A stretch of 64,000 nt of DNA from Propionimicrobium sp. PCR01-08-3. GTDB taxonomy: Bacteria > Actinomycetota > Actinomycetes > Propionibacteriales > Propionibacteriaceae. The stretch lies in contig NZ_CP127390.1 in the NCBI RefSeq assembly GCF_030286045.1, positions 1,939,482-2,003,481 on the forward strand, written 5' to 3'. The notes under the pieces are model-generated. The model was not told the DNA's origin. It was given only the letters and a program-made list of their open reading frames with translations, and did not search any database. Within the stretch, counting starts at the first letter, position 1, and each line of letters starts with the position of its first letter. This document shows, one piece after another, positions 14,993-60,807 of the stretch. The position numbers and the translations under genes are program-made.

Positions 14993-15364
14993 TCAGAGCC
15001 CACCTTCTTGACGGCGACGCCAGCGATCCTCCATCTTGCCCATGAACGGTTCGGAACTCGATGGCGGCGTCGGCTTCGCCTTTTCTGCAGTACCGGTGGC
15101 CTTTCGCCATGCCCCCAGAGCCACCACGGTGGCCACCAGCATCGCGAGGAAGCCGAAGATACTGACGATCCAGTTGGTGCGCATGCCGACAACGAGCAAC
15201 ACCAAGCCAAGCACGAAAAGCACGCCCGCCAGGGTCGCCCTGCGTCCGTGTATCTGTCGAGGAGTGCTGGTCTTGCCGAGAGTCTGAGCTAACTTCGGGT
15301 CGTCCTCAGCCAAGGACGCTTCAAGTTGTTCAAGGAGCCGCTGCTCTTCTTCTGAAAGTGCCAT
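14993..15364 (-). CDS. DUF3040 small membrane protein
   Basis: A 123-residue protein beginning with MALSEEEQRLLEQLE, the hallmark of the actinobacterial DUF3040 family. Two adjacent transmembrane segments (about 42-60 and 64-84) are followed by a short charged tail. The open frame starts further upstream, but the ATG at 15364 is preceded by GGAGGGGAGGAA, a very strong ribosome binding site, and starts at the conserved Met. The family has no known function. A homologue occupies the equivalent place after the division cluster in mycobacteria (Rv2169c, from memory). Confidence 0.88.
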   Translation of the reverse strand: MALSEEEQRLLEQLEASLAEDDPKLAQTLGKTSTPRQIHGRRATLAGVLFVLGLVLLVVGMRTNWIVSIFGFLAMLVATVVALGAWRKATGTAEKAKPTPPSSSEPFMGKMEDRWRRRQEGGL

Positions 15365-15906
15365 TTCCTCCCCTCCTGCCTCGCCTCGGTGCGCACCCGG
15401 CGCGTTCACCGACTTCGTACCAACAAGTGTAGTTGCACCAAGGTGTTCTCACGAAAGCCGTACGGCAATCGTTGATCAAAATCATGACGATTCGGTAACG
15501 GCCATGAAGACCCAGGACGCGACAGTGCGCCGTGGAGCCTCGTCCAGGCGAAATCGGTTACCTGTATGGCGGCAGTGTTCGCTGAGAGGGCAATGCTCGC
15601 CTCACCCAACCCAAAGGTTCACACTCCCGTTCGAATAATGAACTGGAACACCCCGTCCCCGGCCACTTCACCTGGACCTCGCGCCTCGGCTACCAATACT
15701 TCGTCACGCCCGCAGGAACCACCCGTATTGCCGCACCTGACTCTGGTCTCTCCTGATTCAGCCGAGTTTCATCTCTGATCTTGTAGACAGAATGATCATC
15801 AAACGGCGGGTGATTCTTCTTGGCACGCCGCGTCACATTTTGAAGCAGCATCGGGACATCAAGTAGCGGAACAGTTGCTTCAACCGGTCAGCAAATATGG
15901 CGCCAA
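15365..15906. other. 542-base region without an intact gene
   Basis: Between the DUF3040 start and the YhgE/Pip stop there is no convincing complete gene. The two short open frames in it (minus 15406-15609 and plus 15566-15778) have no recognisable family or ribosome binding site. One in-frame segment (15640-15756, plus) looks like the end of a degraded protein and is listed separately. The 5' part must contain the DUF3040 promoter. The stretch reads less GC-rich than its surroundings and is probably decayed DNA. Confidence 0.6.
15640..15756 (+). pseudogene. Remnant resembling the C-terminus of a DUF222/HNH endonuclease-like protein
   Basis: In one frame, 38 codons ending at TGA (15754-15756) read ELEHPVPGHFTWTSRLGYQY and then FVTPAGTTRIAAP. 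The PGHFTWTSRLGYQY pattern resembles the tail that follows the HNH motif in actinobacterial DUF222 (13E12-repeat) proteins, typically PGHLTWTSPTGR-like. No start, no DUF222 domain and no HNH cysteines or histidines are found upstream, and a stop codon lies about 16 codons before. I read it as the last scrap of a deleted gene. The match is from pattern memory only. Confidence 0.4.
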
Positions 15907-18324
15907 CTAATCGGGGCTCGTTTGGGCGCTCACCAGATCGTCCATGGTCGTCGTGCGGTGTTTGATGATCGCGGCTGCGCTCGCCACCAGGCCGAGCAGT
16001 AGCCAGAGCAGCAACTGGAAGACCGCCACCGCGGTACCGCCCGACGACGTGATCAGCGAGCGCATGGCGTCCAGGGCCGGGCTCATCGGCGAGATCGCGC
16101 GCAAGGTGGCGAACAAACCAGGTATTGCGTCGGTCACCATGGGAGCCATCGCGATCACCACGAACGCCAGCGAGACGAATCGTCCGATTCTGCCGAACCA
16201 GGCCACCAGCGCGTGATTGACCGCCACGAAGGCGAGCCCAGCCACCAGGCTGATGCCGAGCAGCCCCGCCAGCTTGGCGAACGGCAACCCGAGCGCGGCC
16301 TGTCCGATCGCCGTCACCGCGACGGCTTGGACGCCCACCACGATCACCCCTGGCAGCAACGCCTCACCGACCAGGTAGGCCGATGGACGCGCCGAACTCA
16401 GCAGCCGCTTGCTCAGCACCTTCACCACCATGAAGGTGGCCATCGCCCCCGCCCACAGTGCGAGCACCAGCAACGCAGTCGCCCAGCCGGTGCCGAGTGT
16501 GGCGGTGCCGGTCAGGTTGCCGGTGGACACCGGAGAAGCCACGACGTCGGCGAGATTATCCCGGTCGGAATCGCTGTAGGAGGGAATCTGGTCCTTGCCC
16601 TGGGCGATGCCGTCCGCGAACTGGCTCATGCCGTCCGCATACTGTGACACGCCGTCCGAGAATTGTGAGCCACCGTCGGCAAGCTGGTTCACTCCATCGG
16701 TCAGCTGACCGGCACCGGACGACAGTTGCGTCATGCCGTCCGACAGCTGATTGGCGCCGTCGACCAGTTGCCCGGTACCGTCGTTCAGCTGATTGGCCCC
16801 GTCGGCGAGTTGATCGGCGCCGTCGCTCAACTGGTTGGCTCCCGAAGACAGCTGGTTCGCCGCATCGGTGGTCTGGTTCATGCCGTCGACCAGCGGCTGC
16901 ATGCCGCCGGCGAACTGGGTGACGCCATCTGCCAGCTGGGAGGTGCCGCCCTTCAAGGCCTCACCGCCATCTCGCAGTTGGGTGGCCATCTCGAGAACAT
17001 CGACGCCGCCCGAGGGCAGCTGGATCCCGGCCAGCTGATCGGGCAACTTCTCGAGATTGTCGATGATCGGTCCGAGATCTTCGTCCTGGCGGGCGTCGGC
17101 CATCGTCTGATCGGCTGTAGTGATGCCGGCCTGGACGGCGGCCCAATAGGCGTCGCAGTCCATTCCGTCGGCTGTTGTGGTGCCGAGTGGACAGTCCAGG
17201 AAGCCTTCCGAGCCGTTCTTTTCCTGTGCCAGTTGTTCGACTGTCCAGCCGCTCATCTGCTCAAGCTCGGCCATGTCGTCCTGAGCTTGACGCATATAGG
17301 CAACCGCCTGATCGAGGCCTTCCTGGTCGCCGGTGATCTGCTGGATGGTCTCGGCGAGTTCGGGATACTGGCTCAGCACATCGATCATCGGGTTGACCAC
17401 TTGGTTCACACCGTCGACGTACTGCCCCACGCCGTCCGCGGACTGCTGGGCGCCCTGGGCCAGCTGCTGGGCTCCGGCGGGCAACGGCTGCACCTGTTGG
17501 GACAAGGTGTTCATGCCGGCCGCGTACTGGCCGACGCCTGACGCGTATTGATCCACCCCGACCGCATACTGGCTGACGCCGCCGGCGAGCTGGCTGACCC
17601 CGCCCGCGTATTGGCTGACGCCGGCCGCGTACTGCTGGGTGCCGCTCGCCGCCTGATTCACACCGGTGGCGAACTCGCTCACCCCCGACGCCGTCTGATT
17701 CAGGCCGTTCGACAGTTCGGACGCGCCATCGGACAGCTGGTCTGCACCATGCGACAGCTGCGAGGCGGCGTCCGCCAAGGTGACGAACTGCTCCCCCATC
17801 TGATTGAAGCCGACATAGATCTGATCGAGGTAGGCCGAGGTCAGGCTCTCATTGAGCACCTGGGCAGCTTCCTGTGCGACGACCTTGCCCAAGGTGGCAT
17901 CCGCGATGCCCGCCACCGGTGAGGTTTGTACCTGGATGGTGGCCGAATAGGCGTCCTGCGCGTCGCCCGCGTACGACGTGGCGGCGGCCGAGAAGTCCTC
18001 GGGAATGACGACCATCGCCGCGTATTCGCCGGTCTTCAAACCGGCCTCGGCGCCGTCGAAGGTGGCCTGCTCCCACGCGAGATTCTGTTCACGGTCCGAG
18101 TCGACGAGGGCGGCGGTGAGCTGGCGTCCCATCGGCACCAACTGCCCTTGCAGCTCGACGGCGACGTCCTGATTCACGACGGCGGCGCGAACCTCGTCCA
18201 TCCGGTCGTCGCTGTTCCAGGTGGCCCACAGCAGTCCGCCCGCCAACAGCACCGGAACCAGGATCAGCCCCAGCCAGGTCGTCCAGCGCAGCTTCTTGCC
18301 ACTACCAGCATGATTGATCGTCAT
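15907..18324 (-). CDS. YhgE/Pip-type membrane protein with long heptad repeats
   Basis: An 805-residue envelope protein. It has an N-terminal transmembrane helix (about 14-33) and a YhgE/Pip-like extracytoplasmic domain (VVNQDVAVELQGQLVPMG onward). Two long repeat blocks follow (about 175-300 and 445-580), built from seven-residue units such as QLSDGAN, QLADGAN, QYAGGVS and QYAAGMN. Between them is a cysteine-containing insert (about 320-430). From about 605 to the end come six hydrophobic helices like an ABC-2-type permease. YhgE/Pip proteins include the lactococcal phage infection protein; their transport role is unsettled. The ATG overlaps the MMPL stop as ATGA, so both proteins are probably made together and may form one complex. 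Confidence 0.85.
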   Translation of the reverse strand: MTINHAGSGKKLRWTTWLGLILVPVLLAGGLLWATWNSDDRMDEVRAAVVNQDVAVELQGQLVPMGRQLTAALVDSDREQNLAWEQATFDGAEAGLKTGEYAAMVVIPEDFSAAATSYAGDAQDAYSATIQVQTSPVAGIADATLGKVVAQEAAQVLNESLTSAYLDQIYVGFNQMGEQFVTLADAASQLSHGADQLSDGASELSNGLNQTASGVSEFATGVNQAASGTQQYAAGVSQYAGGVSQLAGGVSQYAVGVDQYASGVGQYAAGMNTLSQQVQPLPAGAQQLAQGAQQSADGVGQYVDGVNQVVNPMIDVLSQYPELAETIQQITGDQEGLDQAVAYMRQAQDDMAELEQMSGWTVEQLAQEKNGSEGFLDCPLGTTTADGMDCDAYWAAVQAGITTADQTMADARQDEDLGPIIDNLEKLPDQLAGIQLPSGGVDVLEMATQLRDGGEALKGGTSQLADGVTQFAGGMQPLVDGMNQTTDAANQLSSGANQLSDGADQLADGANQLNDGTGQLVDGANQLSDGMTQLSSGAGQLTDGVNQLADGGSQFSDGVSQYADGMSQFADGIAQGKDQIPSYSDSDRDNLADVVASPVSTGNLTGTATLGTGWATALLVLALWAGAMATFMVVKVLSKRLLSSARPSAYLVGEALLPGVIVVGVQAVAVTAIGQAALGLPFAKLAGLLGISLVAGLAFVAVNHALVAWFGRIGRFVSLAFVVIAMAPMVTDAIPGLFATLRAISPMSPALDAMRSLITSSGGTAVAVFQLLLWLLLGLVASAAAIIKHRTTTMDDLVSAQTSPD

Positions 18325-21014
18325 CGGGATACGCCTCCAACAGTTGTGGCGAGTTCAGAATCGAGCCGGAGCACGCGCGCGCCTCCGGGCAGGTAGGTTT
18401 CAGGATCGGCACCGGCGGGAATGCCCAGCACCCAGCTGGTCGGCTGCTCGCCGGCCGGCGGCGGTGCGTCCATCGCCTGGTTCAGCAGTTCGATCGCCTC
18501 CGGGGACAGCTCGCTCAGCGACGGGACGAATACGATGCCGCCGGCGGCCCGGCGCAATTCGGCAGCCACATCGCGGGTCGGGGCCAAGAGCAGCGGGGTG
18601 CGCGTCCGGACGAGCGAGCCTTCCTCTGGCAACACGTGACCCAGCACCTTGGCTTCGCCGGCAGTGAACTTCACGCGTCCGGACAGCCCGTACATCAGCG
18701 CGAACCGGGCCGGACGGTCGCCTTCCACCAGCAGCACCTCACCCGGCGCAAGGGTGACGTCCAAGTCACGGAACAGCACCGTGCCGTCGCTGATCGCCGA
18801 CAGCTGCTCGGCATGGATCGCGGACGCATCGTCCGGCGCCGGCCAGGCCTCGAGTTTCGTCTGGTGCGCCAGCGCGTCGCCCTCGACATCGATCACCGGC
18901 AGCCTCTTGTCGAGCCAGGCCGGCAGCCACCACACCTTGGATCCACCCAGCTTCATCAGCGCGGGCCCGAGCGTCATCCGCACCAGGAAGGCATCAATGG
19001 CCACGCCCACCGCAAGGCTGAGCGCGATCGGTTTGATCGGGCCGATGCCGGTCGGCACGAAGAAGATGAAGACCGAGACCATGATCAGCGCCGCAGCGAT
19101 CACCACCTTCGACGAGCCGGCGAAGCCGTCGGCTATCCAGTTGGCGTTGCCGCGCGCATGCTCCTCGCGCATCCGGGAGGTGAGGAAGACCTCGTAATCC
19201 ATCGCGAGCCCGAACAGGATGCCCATCAAGATGATGGGCAGAAAACTGATGATCGGTCCTGGTTCGCTGAGGTTGATCAGCGACGCCCCGACGCCGTCAT
19301 TGAAGACCAGGGTGACGATGCCGAACGCCGCGAGCACCGACAGCAGGTAGCCGAGAGCCGCCTTGATCGGCACCAAGACCGAACGGAAGGCCATCATCAA
19401 CAGGATCAGCGACAGCCCGACGACGAAGATCCCGAAGGGCAGCAGGGCTGCGCCGAGTTTCTCCGAGACGTCGATCTGCACGGCAACCAATCCGGTGACC
19501 GAAGTGTCGACCCCGTATTCGTCGAGCCAGTGATCGTGCTGGGCACGCAACGCCTCGACCAGGTCGGCGGTGGCCGGATCGTCGGGTCCGGTGGTCGGGA
19601 TGACCTGAATCATGCCGGTATCGGCGTTCGGGTTCGGGACGGCGGCGGCGACCATCTCGACACCGTCGATGTCCTCGATCTCCGCGCGCATGTCGTCGAG
19701 CAGCCCCATCGGGTCGGTCGACTCCACGATGGAGCCGGTGATCACCAGCGGACCATTGAAACCGATCCCGAACTCCTGGCTGACCAGGTCGAATGCCACC
19801 CTGTCGGGGGCTCCCGCCGATGAGCGCCCGGAGTTGGGCAGGGCCAGTTCGATATTGCGCGCCGGCAACGCCAGCGCGCCCAGCCCGACCACGACGACCA
19901 GCACCGTGACCAGCGGCCATTTCGTGACGATCTTCACCCACATCCGGGACGCGCGTCCCGGTCTGCGGTTCTCCAGGCGTTTTGCCTTACGTTCGCTTGG
20001 ACGCAGACGATCGCCGAGCAGCCCGAGCAGGGCCGGCAGCAAGGTGAGCGCCAGGCACACCTCGATGCCGACGCCGACCGCGGTGAACATGCCCATCACC
20101 GACAAGAACGGCACCCCCGCGAAGTTCAGGCCGACCAGCGCGATGATCACCGTCAATCCGGCGAAGACCACGGCAGAACCGCTGGTCGCGACCGCTCTGG
20201 CTGCCGACTCCTGGGTATCCATGCCGTGGAAGAGCTGATCGCGGTGCCGGGAGATGATGAACAGCGAATAGTCGATGCCGACCGCCAGGCAGAGCATCAC
20301 CACGAGGATCAGTGCGGTCGAGCTCACGGTGATGATGCCGGCCCCGACCATCACCAGGCAGACGGCGATGCCGACACCGGTGAGCGCCGAGATGATGGGC
20401 ATGAAGGCGGCCACCAGCCCGAGCACGACGGTCAGCACGATCAGCGCGACGACGACACCGAGACCTTCGACGACGGAGATCTCCGGCATCTCCACGGCGA
20501 AGACGTCACCGCCGACCGCGGCGCTCGAGCCCGGCAACAGCTCGGTGATCTTCTGCCCCGCCTCGGTGAGCTCCGCGCGCTGTTCGTCAGTGAAGGTCGA
20601 CTGGCTGCCCTCGACCTGGACGCGCACCAGAGCGTGCGACCCGTCGTTGGAGATCAGGCCTTTGACGTAGTCGCTGTACGGCAGCTGGGCGCCTTTGACG
20701 AAGTCGAGGTCACTCTCCAGGAAGTCGATGTATTCCTGCATGGCTTCGCGGGCCTGCTCATCGTCGATCCGGGTGCCCTCCGGCGCGCCGACCACGATCG
20801 TGGCGGATGCGTCCGCGGCTTCGGGAAAGGTGACGGAGAGTTCTTCGAGAGCGCGCTGCGAGTTCGAGCCCGGAATGGTGAAATTGTCGTCGTAGTCGCC
20901 GCCGACGGTCAGCGCCAGCACTCCGACGAGCGCAAGTATGGCCAGCCAGATACCCAGCACTCGCCGGCTATGCCGAAAACATGCCCGGCCGATGCGGTAC
21001 AACAATGCTGACAC
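18321..21014 (-). CDS. MMPL/RND-family transporter with C-terminal degenerate ABC-ATPase-like domain
   Basis: A lipid or drug exporter of the MMPL family. The GTG at 21014 (VSALLYRIG) has GGGAG seven bases upstream; the longer open frame is rejected because it would run through the operators. Of 897 residues, 1-690 show the MMPL layout: one helix, a large outer loop, five helices, then the same again, with GIDYSLFIISRHRDQ and AMDYEVFLTSRMREEHARG as the two loop signatures. Residues about 711-897 align in my reading with an ABC ATPase but every catalytic motif is altered: GEVLLVEGDRPARFALMYGL stands at Walker A and VFVPSLSELSPEAIELL at Walker B/D-loop, and there is no LSGGQ. It is coupled to the YhgE/Pip gene and divergent from tetR. 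Confidence 0.9.
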   Translation of the reverse strand: MSALLYRIGRACFRHSRRVLGIWLAILALVGVLALTVGGDYDDNFTIPGSNSQRALEELSVTFPEAADASATIVVGAPEGTRIDDEQAREAMQEYIDFLESDLDFVKGAQLPYSDYVKGLISNDGSHALVRVQVEGSQSTFTDEQRAELTEAGQKITELLPGSSAAVGGDVFAVEMPEISVVEGLGVVVALIVLTVVLGLVAAFMPIISALTGVGIAVCLVMVGAGIITVSSTALILVVMLCLAVGIDYSLFIISRHRDQLFHGMDTQESAARAVATSGSAVVFAGLTVIIALVGLNFAGVPFLSVMGMFTAVGVGIEVCLALTLLPALLGLLGDRLRPSERKAKRLENRRPGRASRMWVKIVTKWPLVTVLVVVVGLGALALPARNIELALPNSGRSSAGAPDRVAFDLVSQEFGIGFNGPLVITGSIVESTDPMGLLDDMRAEIEDIDGVEMVAAAVPNPNADTGMIQVIPTTGPDDPATADLVEALRAQHDHWLDEYGVDTSVTGLVAVQIDVSEKLGAALLPFGIFVVGLSLILLMMAFRSVLVPIKAALGYLLSVLAAFGIVTLVFNDGVGASLINLSEPGPIISFLPIILMGILFGLAMDYEVFLTSRMREEHARGNANWIADGFAGSSKVVIAAALIMVSVFIFFVPTGIGPIKPIALSLAVGVAIDAFLVRMTLGPALMKLGGSKVWWLPAWLDKRLPVIDVEGDALAHQTKLEAWPAPDDASAIHAEQLSAISDGTVLFRDLDVTLAPGEVLLVEGDRPARFALMYGLSGRVKFTAGEAKVLGHVLPEEGSLVRTRTPLLLAPTRDVAAELRRAAGGIVFVPSLSELSPEAIELLNQAMDAPPPAGEQPTSWVLGIPAGADPETYLPGGARVLRLDSELATTVGGVSR

Positions 21015-21042
21015 GAAGGCTCTCCCGTCGACCAAACCGTCC

Positions 21043-21058
21043 GATACGGTAACGTATC
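21043..21058. promoter_or_regulatory. TetR operator 1 (inverted repeat)
   Basis: The inverted repeat GATAC-N6-GTATC lies in the 94-base gap between the divergent MMPL and tetR starts. It is identical in its arms to a second copy whose centre is 34 bp away (about three helical turns). Position and symmetry suggest an operator for the adjacent TetR protein, placed closer to the MMPL start. Confidence 0.7.
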
Positions 21059-21076
21059 CGATACAAGGATGCATCC

Positions 21077-21092
21077 GATACGGCACTGTATC
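21077..21092. promoter_or_regulatory. TetR operator 2 (inverted repeat)
   Basis: This is the second GATAC-N6-GTATC copy, ending 16 bases before the tetR start, where it would overlap the tetR transcription start region. A GTATCCGATAC junction after operator 1 adds an extra half site. Binding here would give autorepression of tetR together with repression of the export operon. Confidence 0.7.
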
Positions 21093-21108
21093 CAACTTTG
21101 GAGGAATG

Positions 21109-21786
21109 ATGACCGCAACGGTGAGCAGCAAACGCGCCCAGACCCAGGACAGGTTGATGGACGCCGCCACCGCTCTGTTCGCCGAGAAGGGTGTGCTCGC
21201 CGCCTCTGTGGAAGAAATCTGTGAACGTGCCGGGTTCACTCGCGGCGCCTTCTACTCCAATTTCGAATCCAAGGACGAGCTGATGCTGGCCGTGTTCAAG
21301 CGCCAGTCGGACGCGATCCTGAAAGCGGCGACCGACGCCATCGCCTCGGTTCCACCAACCCGCATCGAGCCCCGGACCGTCGACGAGGTCATCAGACAGG
21401 CCCTGCAGATTTTCCAGGCCGCACATTCCACCGACGATCAGTGGCTGCTTGCCTGCTCCGAGATCCGGCTGCATGCGTTACGCAATCCCGACGTGCGCGT
21501 CGCGATCAACCAGATCGACGACGACCTCGACGCGCTGATGGCCCAGGCCATCCAGTCCGTCATCGACCAGCACGGTCTCGTCCTGAAGATCGCCCCCGAC
21601 CAGCTGATATCGCTGTTGGGCGCCTACCAGCAAGAGCTGGCATTCGATGCGCTGCGCGAGGGCAAACCGTCGTCGGCCGCCGACTCCGCCGAACCGCTGG
21701 CCACACTGGTGCGCGCCCTCATTGAGATCCCCCTGAGCATCGAGGCCGCCCACCGGTTGGCAACGCCGGCTGCGCGAAGGCGATGA
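21109..21786 (+). CDS. TetR-family transcriptional repressor
   Basis: A 225-residue DNA-binding regulator. The N-terminal helix-turn-helix is clear: ALFAEKGVLAASVEEICERA, then GFTRGAFYSNFESKDEL at 42-58. The C-terminal ligand domain is unassigned. Two ATG codons are adjacent; the second (21109) is preferred because GGAGG at 21100-21104 would sit only one base from the first. The gene is divergent from the MMPL-YhgE operon, with two identical inverted repeats between, so it most likely represses that operon until a membrane-active or lipid ligand binds. The inducer cannot be told. Confidence 0.9.
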   Translation: MTATVSSKRAQTQDRLMDAATALFAEKGVLAASVEEICERAGFTRGAFYSNFESKDELMLAVFKRQSDAILKAATDAIASVPPTRIEPRTVDEVIRQALQIFQAAHSTDDQWLLACSEIRLHALRNPDVRVAINQIDDDLDALMAQAIQSVIDQHGLVLKIAPDQLISLLGAYQQELAFDALREGKPSSAADSAEPLATLVRALIEIPLSIEAAHRLATPAARRR

Positions 21787-24613: not shown

Positions 24614-26854
24614 TTGAGCGAAGAACAATCCCCGAGCACGAACGAGATCCTTGCCCACGAGTTGGCTATCGAGCAGGCTCACGTCGACAAGGTCTACCGT
24701 TACCTTGCTTCCGCGACCGAAGCGGCACGCCAAGTACAGGCCGAGAGCCGCGCCAAATACCAGACCGACCGCGCCGACTGGATGCGTGAAGAAGACAGCA
24801 CCGCGCTGTTCGAACGCGATGCCTTCGCCTATCAGGCGGCCAAGCGGCTCGCGATTCTGGACGCCGAGCACGAGGGGCTGGTCTTCGGCCGGCTCGACTT
24901 CACCGACGAGAACGAAGACAAACGCTATATCGGACGCCTCGGCGTGCGCGACGAGGACTACGAGCCGTTGGTGATCGACTGGCGCGCCCCGGCCGCGGAG
25001 GCCTTCTACCGGGCCACCGCCGCCGACCCGATGGGCGTCTCCCGCCGCCGCACCCTGCGCTGCCGCGACGACCTGGTCGTCAGCATCGAAGACGACCTGC
25101 TCGATGAGGAGAACTCCTCCAACCTTCCGGTGATCGGCGAAGGCGCGCTGATGGCCGCGTTGAAGCGGGCCCGCGGGCCCCGAATGCGCGACATCGTCGC
25201 CACCATCCAGGCCGAGCAGGACATGGCGATCCGCGCCCCCTACCAAGGTGTGACGGTGATCTCCGGCGGGCCCGGCACCGGCAAAACCGTGGTTGCCCTG
25301 CACCGGGCCGCCTTCCTGCTCTACACCCACCGCAAACGCATGGAGGCCGGCGGTGTGCTGGTGGTGGGCCCCACCGACCTGTTCATGAGCTATATCGAAC
25401 GTGTGCTGCCGGGCCTCGGAGAGGACTCGGTGACCCTGAAGTCGGTCGGCGAGCTGGCCAGCGACGTCCTGGGCTTCGGGACCGGGCGCGTCGACGACGC
25501 CGAGGCCGCCATGATCAAGGGCAGCCTGCGGATGCTCCCGGTGCTCAGGAGGGCCGTCTTCGAGCCGATGACCTCCGGAAACATCCGCCTGAGAGTCAGC
25601 GTCAAGGGCGAGATCCTCACCTTGGAGGCGGGCGAACTGAACACCATCCGCCGCGCCGTGCTCAACTCCCACAAGGCCAATCGTGCGCGTCCGGCCGCCG
25701 AGAAGGCGCTCACCGACGCACTGTGGGCGAAGCTGCCGACCGACATCGCGGCCCTGCTCGATCTCTCCCGGGAGGTCTTCGACGACATCGTCACCTCGCA
25801 GGCCAGCTACGCCATGTTCCTCAATGCCTGGTGGCCGATCCTGACCCCCGAGGCGGTGTTGGCCAGGCTCGCCGACCCGGCACTGCTGCGGAAGTTCGCT
25901 CATGAGGTCTTGGACGCGGACGAGCGGCACGTTCTGGCGGACAGCCTGGACCACGCCAGGGACTTCATTCCGGGGACAGGTATGCATCCCGACTGGTCGG
26001 TGGCCGACATCGCGCTGCTCGACGAGCTGGCGGCGATGATCGGCCCGGCGCCGGTGGAAAACGAGGTCGATCCGGCGCTCTATCTCGAGGACGGCACCGA
26101 GATCGCCGAGCTGGTGACGCTGGCCGATCAGCTCACCGACACCCGCGAGACCGACCCCGACGATGACGGGGTGGTCACCCACGCGCACGTGCTGGTCGAC
26201 GAGGCCCAAGACATCACGCCCATGCAGTGGCGGATGCTGCGCCGCCGCGGCCCGCAGGCCAGTTGGACGCTGGTCGGCGACCCCGCGCAAAGCTCCTACC
26301 CGAACGACGACGAGACCGAGCGCGCGATGCGCGATCTGATCGGACGCGGGTCCTCGCGCACCTTCCGGCTGTCGACCAACTACCGCTCGCCGGCCGAGAT
26401 CATGGATCTCGCGGGCAAGGTGATCACCTCGTTCTATCCGGACGCGGACGTGCCGACCTCGGTTCGCCAGACCGGTGTCGATCCCCGGCTGCTTTCGGTG
26501 CCGGCCGACCGGCTCCCCGAGTCACTGGGCCGCGTGGTGACCGAGCTGGGCCGTCAGGTGGAGGGCTCGATCGCGATCATCTGCGCGGCCGGACGATTCG
26601 GTTCGGTTCGTGACACCGTGGCGTCCATGCCCTTGGACGACGCCGTGCGGGCCAGGCTCACGGTCGTCACCGCGCTGCAGGCCAAGGGCCTGGAGTTCGA
26701 CGCGGCCATCGTGGTGGCGCCCGACGAGATCGTGGATCAAACCCCGGGTGGGATGCGGGTGCTCTATGTCGCACTCACCCGCCCGACCCAGCGCCTGGTC
26801 ACCATCGATCTGGGCGATGGACGTCCCGGAGCTTGGCGAGAATCTCTCGAGTAG
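24614..26854 (+). CDS. HelD/HelR-like RNA polymerase-associated helicase
   Basis: A 746-residue UvrD-like superfamily 1 ATPase. An N-terminal coiled coil (EILAHELAIEQAHVDKVYRY region) precedes Walker A SGGPGTGKTVVALHRA at about 217-232, the Walker B stretch HVLVDEAQDITPMQW near 525, and the late helicase motifs TALQAKGLEFDAAIVV and LYVALTRPTQRLV. The N-terminal coil with the TDRADWMREEDSTALFERDAF region fits HelD proteins, which pry stalled RNA polymerase off DNA; the related HelR of actinobacteria protects it from rifamycins. The start is TTG with GAGGA upstream. The last 56 bases overlap the convergent metF. Confidence 0.88.
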   Translation: MSEEQSPSTNEILAHELAIEQAHVDKVYRYLASATEAARQVQAESRAKYQTDRADWMREEDSTALFERDAFAYQAAKRLAILDAEHEGLVFGRLDFTDENEDKRYIGRLGVRDEDYEPLVIDWRAPAAEAFYRATAADPMGVSRRRTLRCRDDLVVSIEDDLLDEENSSNLPVIGEGALMAALKRARGPRMRDIVATIQAEQDMAIRAPYQGVTVISGGPGTGKTVVALHRAAFLLYTHRKRMEAGGVLVVGPTDLFMSYIERVLPGLGEDSVTLKSVGELASDVLGFGTGRVDDAEAAMIKGSLRMLPVLRRAVFEPMTSGNIRLRVSVKGEILTLEAGELNTIRRAVLNSHKANRARPAAEKALTDALWAKLPTDIAALLDLSREVFDDIVTSQASYAMFLNAWWPILTPEAVLARLADPALLRKFAHEVLDADERHVLADSLDHARDFIPGTGMHPDWSVADIALLDELAAMIGPAPVENEVDPALYLEDGTEIAELVTLADQLTDTRETDPDDDGVVTHAHVLVDEAQDITPMQWRMLRRRGPQASWTLVGDPAQSSYPNDDETERAMRDLIGRGSSRTFRLSTNYRSPAEIMDLAGKVITSFYPDADVPTSVRQTGVDPRLLSVPADRLPESLGRVVTELGRQVEGSIAIICAAGRFGSVRDTVASMPLDDAVRARLTVVTALQAKGLEFDAAIVVAPDEIVDQTPGGMRVLYVALTRPTQRLVTIDLGDGRPGAWRESLE

Positions 26855-58992: not shown

Positions 58993-60807
58993 ATGGCGCA
59001 TCTTCTCGGGGCCGAAGCCCTGCATCTTGAATACCCGACCAAGGTCGTCTTCGATTCGGTGACGCTTGGCCTCAACGAGGGCGACCGGATCGGCGTCGTC
59101 GGCCGCAACGGTGATGGCAAGTCATCTTTGCTGGGCATGCTTTCCGGACGAATTCAGCCGAACTCGGGTCAGGTCACCCGCCGCGGCGACCTTCGGATCG
59201 GGGTGCTCGACCAGGCCGACACCTTGGACGACGAGGTGAGCGTCGGGTTCACCATCGTCGGCGACCGGCCTGAATATGAATGGGCCGGTGACCCGAAGAT
59301 CCGTGACGTGCTGGCGGGTCTGGTGCCCGATCTCGATTGGGACGCTGCCGTCGGCACGTTGAGCGGCGGCCAGCGCCGCAGGGTTGCCCTGGCGTCCCTG
59401 CTGGCCGGCGAGTGGGATGTGCTGACCCTCGATGAGCCGACCAACCATCTCGACATGGAGGGCATCACCTGGCTGGCCCACCATCTGAAGAACCGCTGGG
59501 CGCTGAATGCCGGCGGACTCCTGGTGGTCACCCACGACCGCTGGTTCTTGGACGAGGTCGCCACCGCCACCTGGGAGGTGCACGACCAGATCGTCGAGCC
59601 CTTCGAGGGCGGCTACGCAGCGTACGTTCTGCAGCGGGTGGAGCGCGACCGGATTGCCGCCGCCACCGAGGCGAAGCGGCAGAATCTGATGCGCAAGGAG
59701 CTGGCCTGGCTGCGCCGCGGGGCGCCGGCTCGCACGTCGAAACCCCGGTTCCGTATCGAGGCAGCGAACGAACTCATCGCCAATGAACCTCCGCCTCGCG
59801 ACAAGCTCGAACTCGACCGGCTGGCGGTGGCCAGGCTGGGCAAGGATGTCGTTGACCTGCTGGACGCGTCCGCGGGATTCGATGGCCGCGAGGTCTTGCA
59901 CGATGTGACCTGGCAGATCGCTCCGGGCGAGCGCAGTGCGGTGCTCGGTGCCAACGGTGCGGGCAAGTCGACCCTGCTCGGCCTGATCTCCGGAGACATC
60001 AGGCCGACCTCCGGGCGTGTGAAACGCGGCAAGACCGTAAAGCTGGCGGTGCTCGATCAGCAGTTCCGTGAGCTGGACGAGATCGCAGATGACCTGGTGC
60101 GTGACGTGCTGGCCCGCCATCGGGCGAGCTACGTCGTGGGCGGCAAAGAGTTGACTCCCGCCCAGTTGCTGGAGCGGCTGGGATTCTCGTCCCAGCATCT
60201 GTCGGCCCGGGTCGGTGAGCTCTCGGGCGGTCAGAAACGTCGGCTGCAGTTTCTGCTGGTGCTGCTGAGCGAACCTAATGTGATGGTTCTCGATGAGCCT
60301 TCGAACGATGTCGACACCGACATGCTCGCGGCGATGGAGGATCTGCTCGATTCGTGGCCGGGCACCTTGATCGTGGTTTCGCACGACCGTTATCTCGTCG
60401 AGCGGGTCACCGATCAGCAGTATGCGATCATCGACGGCAGGCTTCGCCACCTACCCGGCGGCGTGGACGAATACCTGCGCCTCCAAGAGGAAGCCGCTCA
60501 GACATCGATCTCCGCGACACGACCGGCGGATCCGACGAGCCGCCGGCAGTCCTCCTCCCCTGCCCCATCAACCGGACCCCACAGATCGGGAGCCGAGGAG
60601 CACGCTGCCCGCAAGGAGCTGGCTGCGTCCGAACGAAGGCTCGAACGGCTGGCCGGGCAGAGCGCCACAATCCAAGAGAAGATGGCCACCCACGACCCGA
60701 GCGACTACGAGGGCCTGACCAAGCTGAACGAGAAGCTTCAGGCCGTGCAGCAAGAATCGTCCGAGGTCGAAGAACGCTGGCTTGAGCTGGCCGAACAACT
60801 CGGCTGA
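58993..60807 (+). CDS. ABC-F family ATPase (ribosome-associated)
   Basis: A 604-residue soluble twin-ATPase of the ABC-F family, which act on the ribosome as translation factors or antibiotic-protection proteins. The first domain has GRNGDGKSS (37-45), LSGGQRRRVALASLLAG and LTLDEPTNHLDMEG; the second has GANGAGKST (about 318-326), LSGGQKRRLQFLLV and MVLDEPSNDVDTD. The interdomain linker is short and Arg-rich (LAWLRRGAPARTSKPRFRIE), as in the Uup/EttA-like branch. After 500 comes a disordered stretch, then a C-terminal coiled coil (about 540-604). It starts four bases after the DUF4191 stop. Confidence 0.93.
   Translation: MAHLLGAEALHLEYPTKVVFDSVTLGLNEGDRIGVVGRNGDGKSSLLGMLSGRIQPNSGQVTRRGDLRIGVLDQADTLDDEVSVGFTIVGDRPEYEWAGDPKIRDVLAGLVPDLDWDAAVGTLSGGQRRRVALASLLAGEWDVLTLDEPTNHLDMEGITWLAHHLKNRWALNAGGLLVVTHDRWFLDEVATATWEVHDQIVEPFEGGYAAYVLQRVERDRIAAATEAKRQNLMRKELAWLRRGAPARTSKPRFRIEAANELIANEPPPRDKLELDRLAVARLGKDVVDLLDASAGFDGREVLHDVTWQIAPGERSAVLGANGAGKSTLLGLISGDIRPTSGRVKRGKTVKLAVLDQQFRELDEIADDLVRDVLARHRASYVVGGKELTPAQLLERLGFSSQHLSARVGELSGGQKRRLQFLLVLLSEPNVMVLDEPSNDVDTDMLAAMEDLLDSWPGTLIVVSHDRYLVERVTDQQYAIIDGRLRHLPGGVDEYLRLQEEAAQTSISATRPADPTSRRQSSSPAPSTGPHRSGAEEHAARKELAASERRLERLAGQSATIQEKMATHDPSDYEGLTKLNEKLQAVQQESSEVEERWLELAEQLG

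Follow-up and report, generated by a model that had tools for sequence, protein, structure and literature searches.

Why should a pump of the MMPL (RND) type end in what looks like a broken ATPase, and why should the next gene encode a YhgE/Pip protein? RND exporters and ABC exporters are assigned to different energy classes, and an ABC-2-type exporter is built from a separate nucleotide-binding domain (NBD) and an ABC2_membrane permease. The locus that raises the question lies in the window, i.e., the whole stretch of 64,000 nucleotides analysed here, from the actinobacterium Propionimicrobium sp. PCR01-08-3. An earlier note, made from the letters alone, had described an MMPL transporter fused to a catalytically dead ABC-ATPase-like domain at 18321..21014. 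These coordinates are correct, and the open reading frame and its translation place the gene on the minus strand, which had not been given; the peptides quoted for the C-terminal domain are also present in the translation. The features that the question concerns are the following:

18321..21014, minus strand: MMPL (RND) transporter with a C-terminal pseudo-NBD, from its open reading frame and translation (897 aa, GTG start) and from Pfam MMPL

18903..21014, minus strand: its MMPL part, residues 1-704, with the proton-relay pairs D248-Y249 and D606-Y607 intact

18321..18833, minus strand: degenerate ABC NBD-like domain, approximately residues 728-897, with the beta-subdomain and core kept and the helical subdomain missing (profile search against the PDB, hhalign, motif tables, P-loop-like model)

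18672..18722, minus strand: residues 765-781, comprising the dead Walker A (GDRPARFA) and the following helix, which has the family-specific LSGR (alignments, motif tables)

15907..18324, minus strand: YhgE/Pip protein of 805 aa, with an ABC-2-like membrane part and a long part of xxxLxxG heptad repeats; ATGA overlap with the MMPL gene

The pump itself seems to be in order. The whole 897-aa protein matches Pfam PF03176 (MMPL) with an E-value of 1e-84 and 284.8 bits (cut-off 20.5), while it does not reach the cut-offs of the NCBIfam MmpL3 model (177.1 bits, cut-off 1400) or of TIGR00833 (193.1 bits, cut-off 874.7). In the MMPL alignment, both Asp-Tyr pairs are invariant in 58/58 fused and 23/23 tail-less rows. 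The proton relay of MmpL3 is given as Asp251/Tyr252/Asp640/Tyr641 in an excerpt of PMC11481577. Judged from its residues, the MMPL part makes up an entire RND pump, proton relay included, and it can be predicted to use the proton gradient.

The next gene, which had been read as a YhgE/Pip gene with ABC-2-like helices, coupled by ATGA, bears that description out: its product matches ABC2_membrane_3 of Pfam (E 1.6e-21) and the N-terminal domain model TIGR03061 (E 4.4e-33, 114.2 bits, above the cut-off of 96.15), and its heptad-repeat part contains 13 stretches of TIGR03057. The cut-off of the C-terminal domain model TIGR03062 (102.2) is not reached (79.2 bits, E 3e-22). Pip belongs to this family, and so does an EsaA orthologue of type VIIb secretion (excerpt of PMC4999554). 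Approximately 500 nt downstream of yhgE lies a gene for a DUF3040 protein (14993-15409, minus strand), probably outside the operon.

The descent of the C-terminal domain, of about 170 residues (~728 to 897), from an ABC NBD is well supported by profile comparisons. Taken alone, the C-terminal 193 residues match nothing notable in Pfam (best E 0.27) and match the NCBIfam ABC ATPase CcmA weakly (E 9e-4, 18.7 bits, cut-off 195). When a profile of 40 homologous domains was searched against the PDB, the best 60 of 172 matches (E <=10) were all NBDs of the ABC superfamily, the top one at E 7e-6, the matches running mainly over the Walker A half. Pfam ABC_tran (cut-off 25) is passed by two full-length fused relatives, L125 with 50.7 bits and L126 with 27.9 bits, a third, L087, reaching 20.8 bits; it also matches, at E <=0.1, 13 of 17 stand-alone NBDs encoded beside YhgE elsewhere, which are described below. 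Against these YhgE-linked NBDs, hhalign aligned the domain with a probability of 98 (E 2e-13, 79 columns), whereas a direct comparison of window-like domains with six canonical ABC proteins reached a probability of only 10. The link to ABC proteins runs through the YhgE-linked NBDs and mostly through the Walker A half; support for the other half is weaker (L171 at E 2e-4, L125 at E 3e-3 and L124 at E 6e-3). A fold prediction had been proposed as a check. The model of the domain, of modest confidence (pLDDT 60), has a P-loop-NTPase-like core; ABC chains stand low in the Foldseek list (CydDC at rank 17, CcmA at rank 34), and the best structural matches of a second model are AAA+ and RecA-type cores, not ABC chains.

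Catalytic motifs were tabulated from a single MAFFT alignment of 58 fused domains (that of the window and 57 others), 18 stand-alone YhgE-linked NBDs and 6 canonical proteins. In the window, GDRPARFA occupies the P-loop position and the lysine is gone, Walker B reads IVFVPSLSEL with the acid missing at the Asp position, and the helical subdomain, the LSGGQ stretch and the H-switch are all missing; the degenerate Walker A, the lost Walker B acids and the absent signature had been noticed before, and by its motifs the domain is taken to be catalytically dead. Across the table, a Walker A of the form G-x4-G-K-S/T occurs in 5/58 fused, 0/18 stand-alone and 6/6 canonical proteins, and the same order gives 0/58, 0/18 and 6/6 for LSGG, 2/58, 0/18 and 6/6 for the catalytic Glu, and 1/58, 0/18 and 6/6 for the switch His. 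The signature segment is missing in 48/58 fused domains, including that of the window. The P-loop lysine is retained in five fused relatives (L087, L124, L125, L126 and L127); the last four also keep the helical segment and have an LSRLE-like sequence at the signature position.

Conservation within the domain falls on non-catalytic residues, namely G779, R780, G786, G792, P796 and R803, four of which (G779, R780, G786 and R803) are invariant in 40/40 rows. The arginine of an LxGR motif, at the position of R780, is found in 56/58 fused and 18/18 stand-alone domains and in 0/6 canonical ones, all six of which have Leu, a pattern by which LxGR marks the NBD family; R803 is kept in 53/58 fused and 16/18 stand-alone domains. 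As far as motifs tell, the NBD of the window lineage is one that has lost every catalytic element and the helical subdomain and has retained a conserved core.

The same fusion was sought in other genomes, as had been suggested, and a match to the domain (E <=0.001) was obtained in 158/198 genomes of the same family, in 25/29 genera. In 40/40 fetched family loci, MMPL and the domain form one frame and yhgE lies on the same strand; 18 of 20 further loci from the class have both the tail and YhgE (in broken frames in L132), and the other two, L136 and L137, have neither. Hence YhgE, whose presence near homologues the earlier note had made a touchstone, follows the fusion directly and on the same strand in 58/58 inspected fused loci, with an estimated gap of -17 to +70 nt in 56 of them, the remaining L067 and L132 being frame-broken. 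Conversely, within the stretch fetched, 0/22 tail-less MMPL loci carry YhgE (L136, L137 and 20 more, with only ~0.7 kb after the MMPL gene covered in L140). The tailed, tail-less and YhgE loci were picked from listed matches, not at random, and the counts span related genomes that are not independent of each other, so that the Fisher value that accompanied the comparison of R780 and R803 is no true probability.

A frame of 1863 aa in L067, running through MMPL, domain and YhgE, was considered as a Rosetta-stone fusion and rejected: it results from a frameshift near the domain end, the usual stop lying in another frame. The frame breaks of L067, L132 and L088 lie in the pseudo-NBD or in YhgE, which in L088 is split over two frames; they may be real or assembly errors.

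The partnership extends to YhgE genes away from MMPL. Of such genes that exceed the TIGR03061 cut-off, 20 were chosen; 17/20 have a same-family stand-alone NBD directly upstream on the same strand, and no NBD match was found at the other three of these long YhgE loci (L165, L167 and L178). The stand-alone NBDs (L159-L164, L166, L168-L177) mostly have the Walker A lysine replaced by Arg or His (15/18) and have no LSGG; they make up an apparent family of pseudo-ABC ATPases in other actinobacteria. Among 20 mostly short or low-scoring YhgE loci, a same-family NBD neighbour occurs only in L198, L188 showing a weak NBD-profile match 3 kb away on the other strand, so that the NBD partnership seems to be tied to the long YhgE type. 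The only locus of this set with an MMPL fragment is L183, where a short YhgE stands beside a tail-less fragment with no NBD, indicating that YhgE and MMPL can adjoin without an NBD. Altogether, the constant presence of YhgE at fused loci, its absence from tail-less ones and the stand-alone NBDs beside it elsewhere make the domain look like the cognate NBD of YhgE, fused to MMPL and then stripped down.

These observations bear on two other explanations. The domain could be a regulatory or scaffold module of MMPL that never touches YhgE, the gene pair being merely co-regulated, and a TetR match in 35/40 family loci would suit such an arrangement; yet the same NBD family stands beside YhgE where no MMPL gene is near, and we regard this explanation as improbable. 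The regulator and its surroundings in the window are:

21106..21786, plus strand: divergent TetR-family regulator, the start at 21106 or 21109 being a choice (the longest frame starts at 20938)

21040..21093, no strand assigned: three 20-nt repeats with 17-nt spacing, located where the TetR and MMPL genes diverge; the first has a palindromic GATACGGTAACGTATC core

The three repeats are probably TetR operators. Further along, 24614-26854 (plus strand) encodes a UvrD-type helicase (Pfam AAA_19, UvrD-helicase), and 58993-60807 (plus strand), approximately 38 kb from the fusion gene, is a frame of 604 aa with canonical ABC ATPase motifs.

The latter gene is relevant to the second explanation, by which the domain would be one half of a nucleotide site completed in trans by an active NBD, as in degenerate-site ABC transporters. 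Arg does replace the Walker A lysine in ABCG5/G8, a working pair with one degenerate site (excerpt of PMC7756269), and Arg stands there in 12/18 stand-alone YhgE-linked NBDs. However, the fused genes of the 60 fetched loci are accompanied by no second NBD, apart from L081 and L138, where a canonical ABC gene lies on the opposite strand, and the signature segment that a partner site would need is the very one that most fused domains have lost. An active partner in trans thus appears very improbable.

The history of the fusion was traced with quick trees that have SH-aLRT support only. A single branch of the MMPL tree, which is unrooted, divides the fused from the tail-less rows (SH-aLRT 98), and in the YhgE tree a branch likewise sets apart the proteins of fused loci (SH-aLRT 99), so that one origin of the fusion suffices. 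Fused and stand-alone NBDs are set apart together from the canonical ones (SH-aLRT 96), whereas a single group of fused NBDs among the stand-alone ones receives little support (36). Left out before counts were made were L052 (from A1), which nearly duplicates L051, L132 (from the table and the tree of domains), the partial L063 (from the MMPL tree) and the NBD of L169 (from A5 and the domain tree). In a phylum sample of 197 genomes, among the matches listed (E <=1e-100) none but the window's own extends past residue 758; the fusion is therefore seen only within the same class. On the MMPL tree, 2 changes are enough to explain where the helical segment is present, and 2 also explain the P-loop lysine, the 46-row group that includes the window having the short domain throughout. 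Full-length NBDs with the P-loop lysine and short remnants thus provide a natural series of intermediates.

Such a series might also be read as decay, YhgE having needed no NBD after the fusion and the tail being on its way out, held only by frame continuity and by the overlap with yhgE. It would fit that relatives have lost the P-loop lysine, the signature and the helical subdomain, and so would the pace of change: within the genus, the domain core is 59-70% identical and MMPL 85%, and this faster evolution of the domain fits a partial relaxation. Nevertheless, in pairwise comparisons with four relatives, several of them with dS near saturation, dN/dS is 0.12-0.40 for the domain and 0.12-0.48 for its core alone, with 0.09-0.37 for the MMPL part, values that point to purifying selection on the domain. 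The four residues invariant in all rows speak in the same direction, and so do the mere two changes that account for the helical loss and the constancy of the short domain in the window's group. Moreover, no inspected locus pairs a long YhgE with a tail-less MMPL, L183 having a short YhgE and an MMPL fragment. A decaying relic is therefore unlikely in our view, and the spread of the domain over 158 of the 198 family genomes, together with its dN/dS, indicates that the fusion and its domain are not a chance event.

We rather incline to a two-gene hybrid exporter, proton-driven through MMPL, in which the pseudo-NBD would serve as a docking module for the ABC-2-like YhgE, encoded beside a TetR regulator. 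The earlier note had already proposed that the dead domain may hold both proteins together in one hybrid exporter; the NBD ancestry and the gene linkage of that proposal are well supported, and docking, energy coupling and substrate are what we infer. YhgE would be a permease of the ABC-2 type, have a long extracytoplasmic arm and formerly have used its own NBD, and this NBD would have been fused, most simply once, to an MMPL pump. As a part of MMPL, the pseudo-NBD would dock on the cytoplasmic face of YhgE and bring the two together; the proton-driven cycle of MMPL would supply energy or the substrate (a lipid, perhaps, or another amphiphile), and YhgE would pass the substrate onward or shape the exit path. 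Given a pump with a proton gradient to use, an ABC-2-like YhgE and no working ATPase beside them, the simplest reading is that the old motor of YhgE became a fixed coupling piece, the proton-driven movement of MMPL replacing ATP, which would no longer be used. This suggests an exporter in which the engine was exchanged and the former motor retained for coupling. A bolder and more tentative version, which we would hesitate to expect, would be that the cognate NBD, welded onto the RND pump and stripped of catalysis, forms a pseudo-ATPase hinge coupling proton-motive work to an ABC-type permease, long actinobacterial YhgEs at large going with a whole pseudo-NBD family (Walker A Lys mostly replaced by Arg/His, LxGR).

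In the open-licence literature, no description was found of NBDs fused to MMPL or of pseudo-NBDs that accompany YhgE. The nearest public hint for the pairing comes from Saccharopolyspora hirsuta, in which a YhgE/Pip gene and an MMPL gene, the latter with or without the tail, have neighbouring tags (04135/04140, from the apparent layout of a table) and are both raised by cholesterol (excerpt of PMC9782250). The fusion would be a new arrangement of known parts, and it is widespread in one class of actinobacteria. A conserved RND pump carrying the dead NBD of an adjoining ABC-2-like permease allows one energy class driving another to be tested directly, and YhgE/Pip, whose function is unsettled, gains a role that can be tested, that of an ABC-type permease in actinobacteria.

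Compared with known systems, the domain resembles the degenerate nucleotide sites of ABCG5/G8 and Pdr5 in that the Walker A lysine is replaced (by Arg and Cys, respectively), the Glu being lost and the signature altered in that of Pdr5 (excerpt of PMC7756269). Unlike these transporters, which have one canonical site each (same excerpt), the window operon encodes no canonical site. With MmpL3 and the MMPL-type RND exporters, the pump shares two MMPL halves and the Asp-Tyr relay, differing in its C-terminal pseudo-NBD and in the YhgE neighbour of all inspected fused loci. The YhgE of the window has the N-terminal domain, heptad repeats and C-terminal membrane part of the YhgE/Pip family (TIGR03061/TIGR03062), although it scores below the cut-off of the C-terminal model and adjoins a pseudo-NBD fused to MMPL. 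Finally, the match to ABC2_membrane_3 and the stand-alone NBDs upstream of other YhgE genes recall the ABC-2-type exporters; in contrast to these, the NBD of the window is dead by motif, shortened and fused to what is predicted to be a proton-driven pump.
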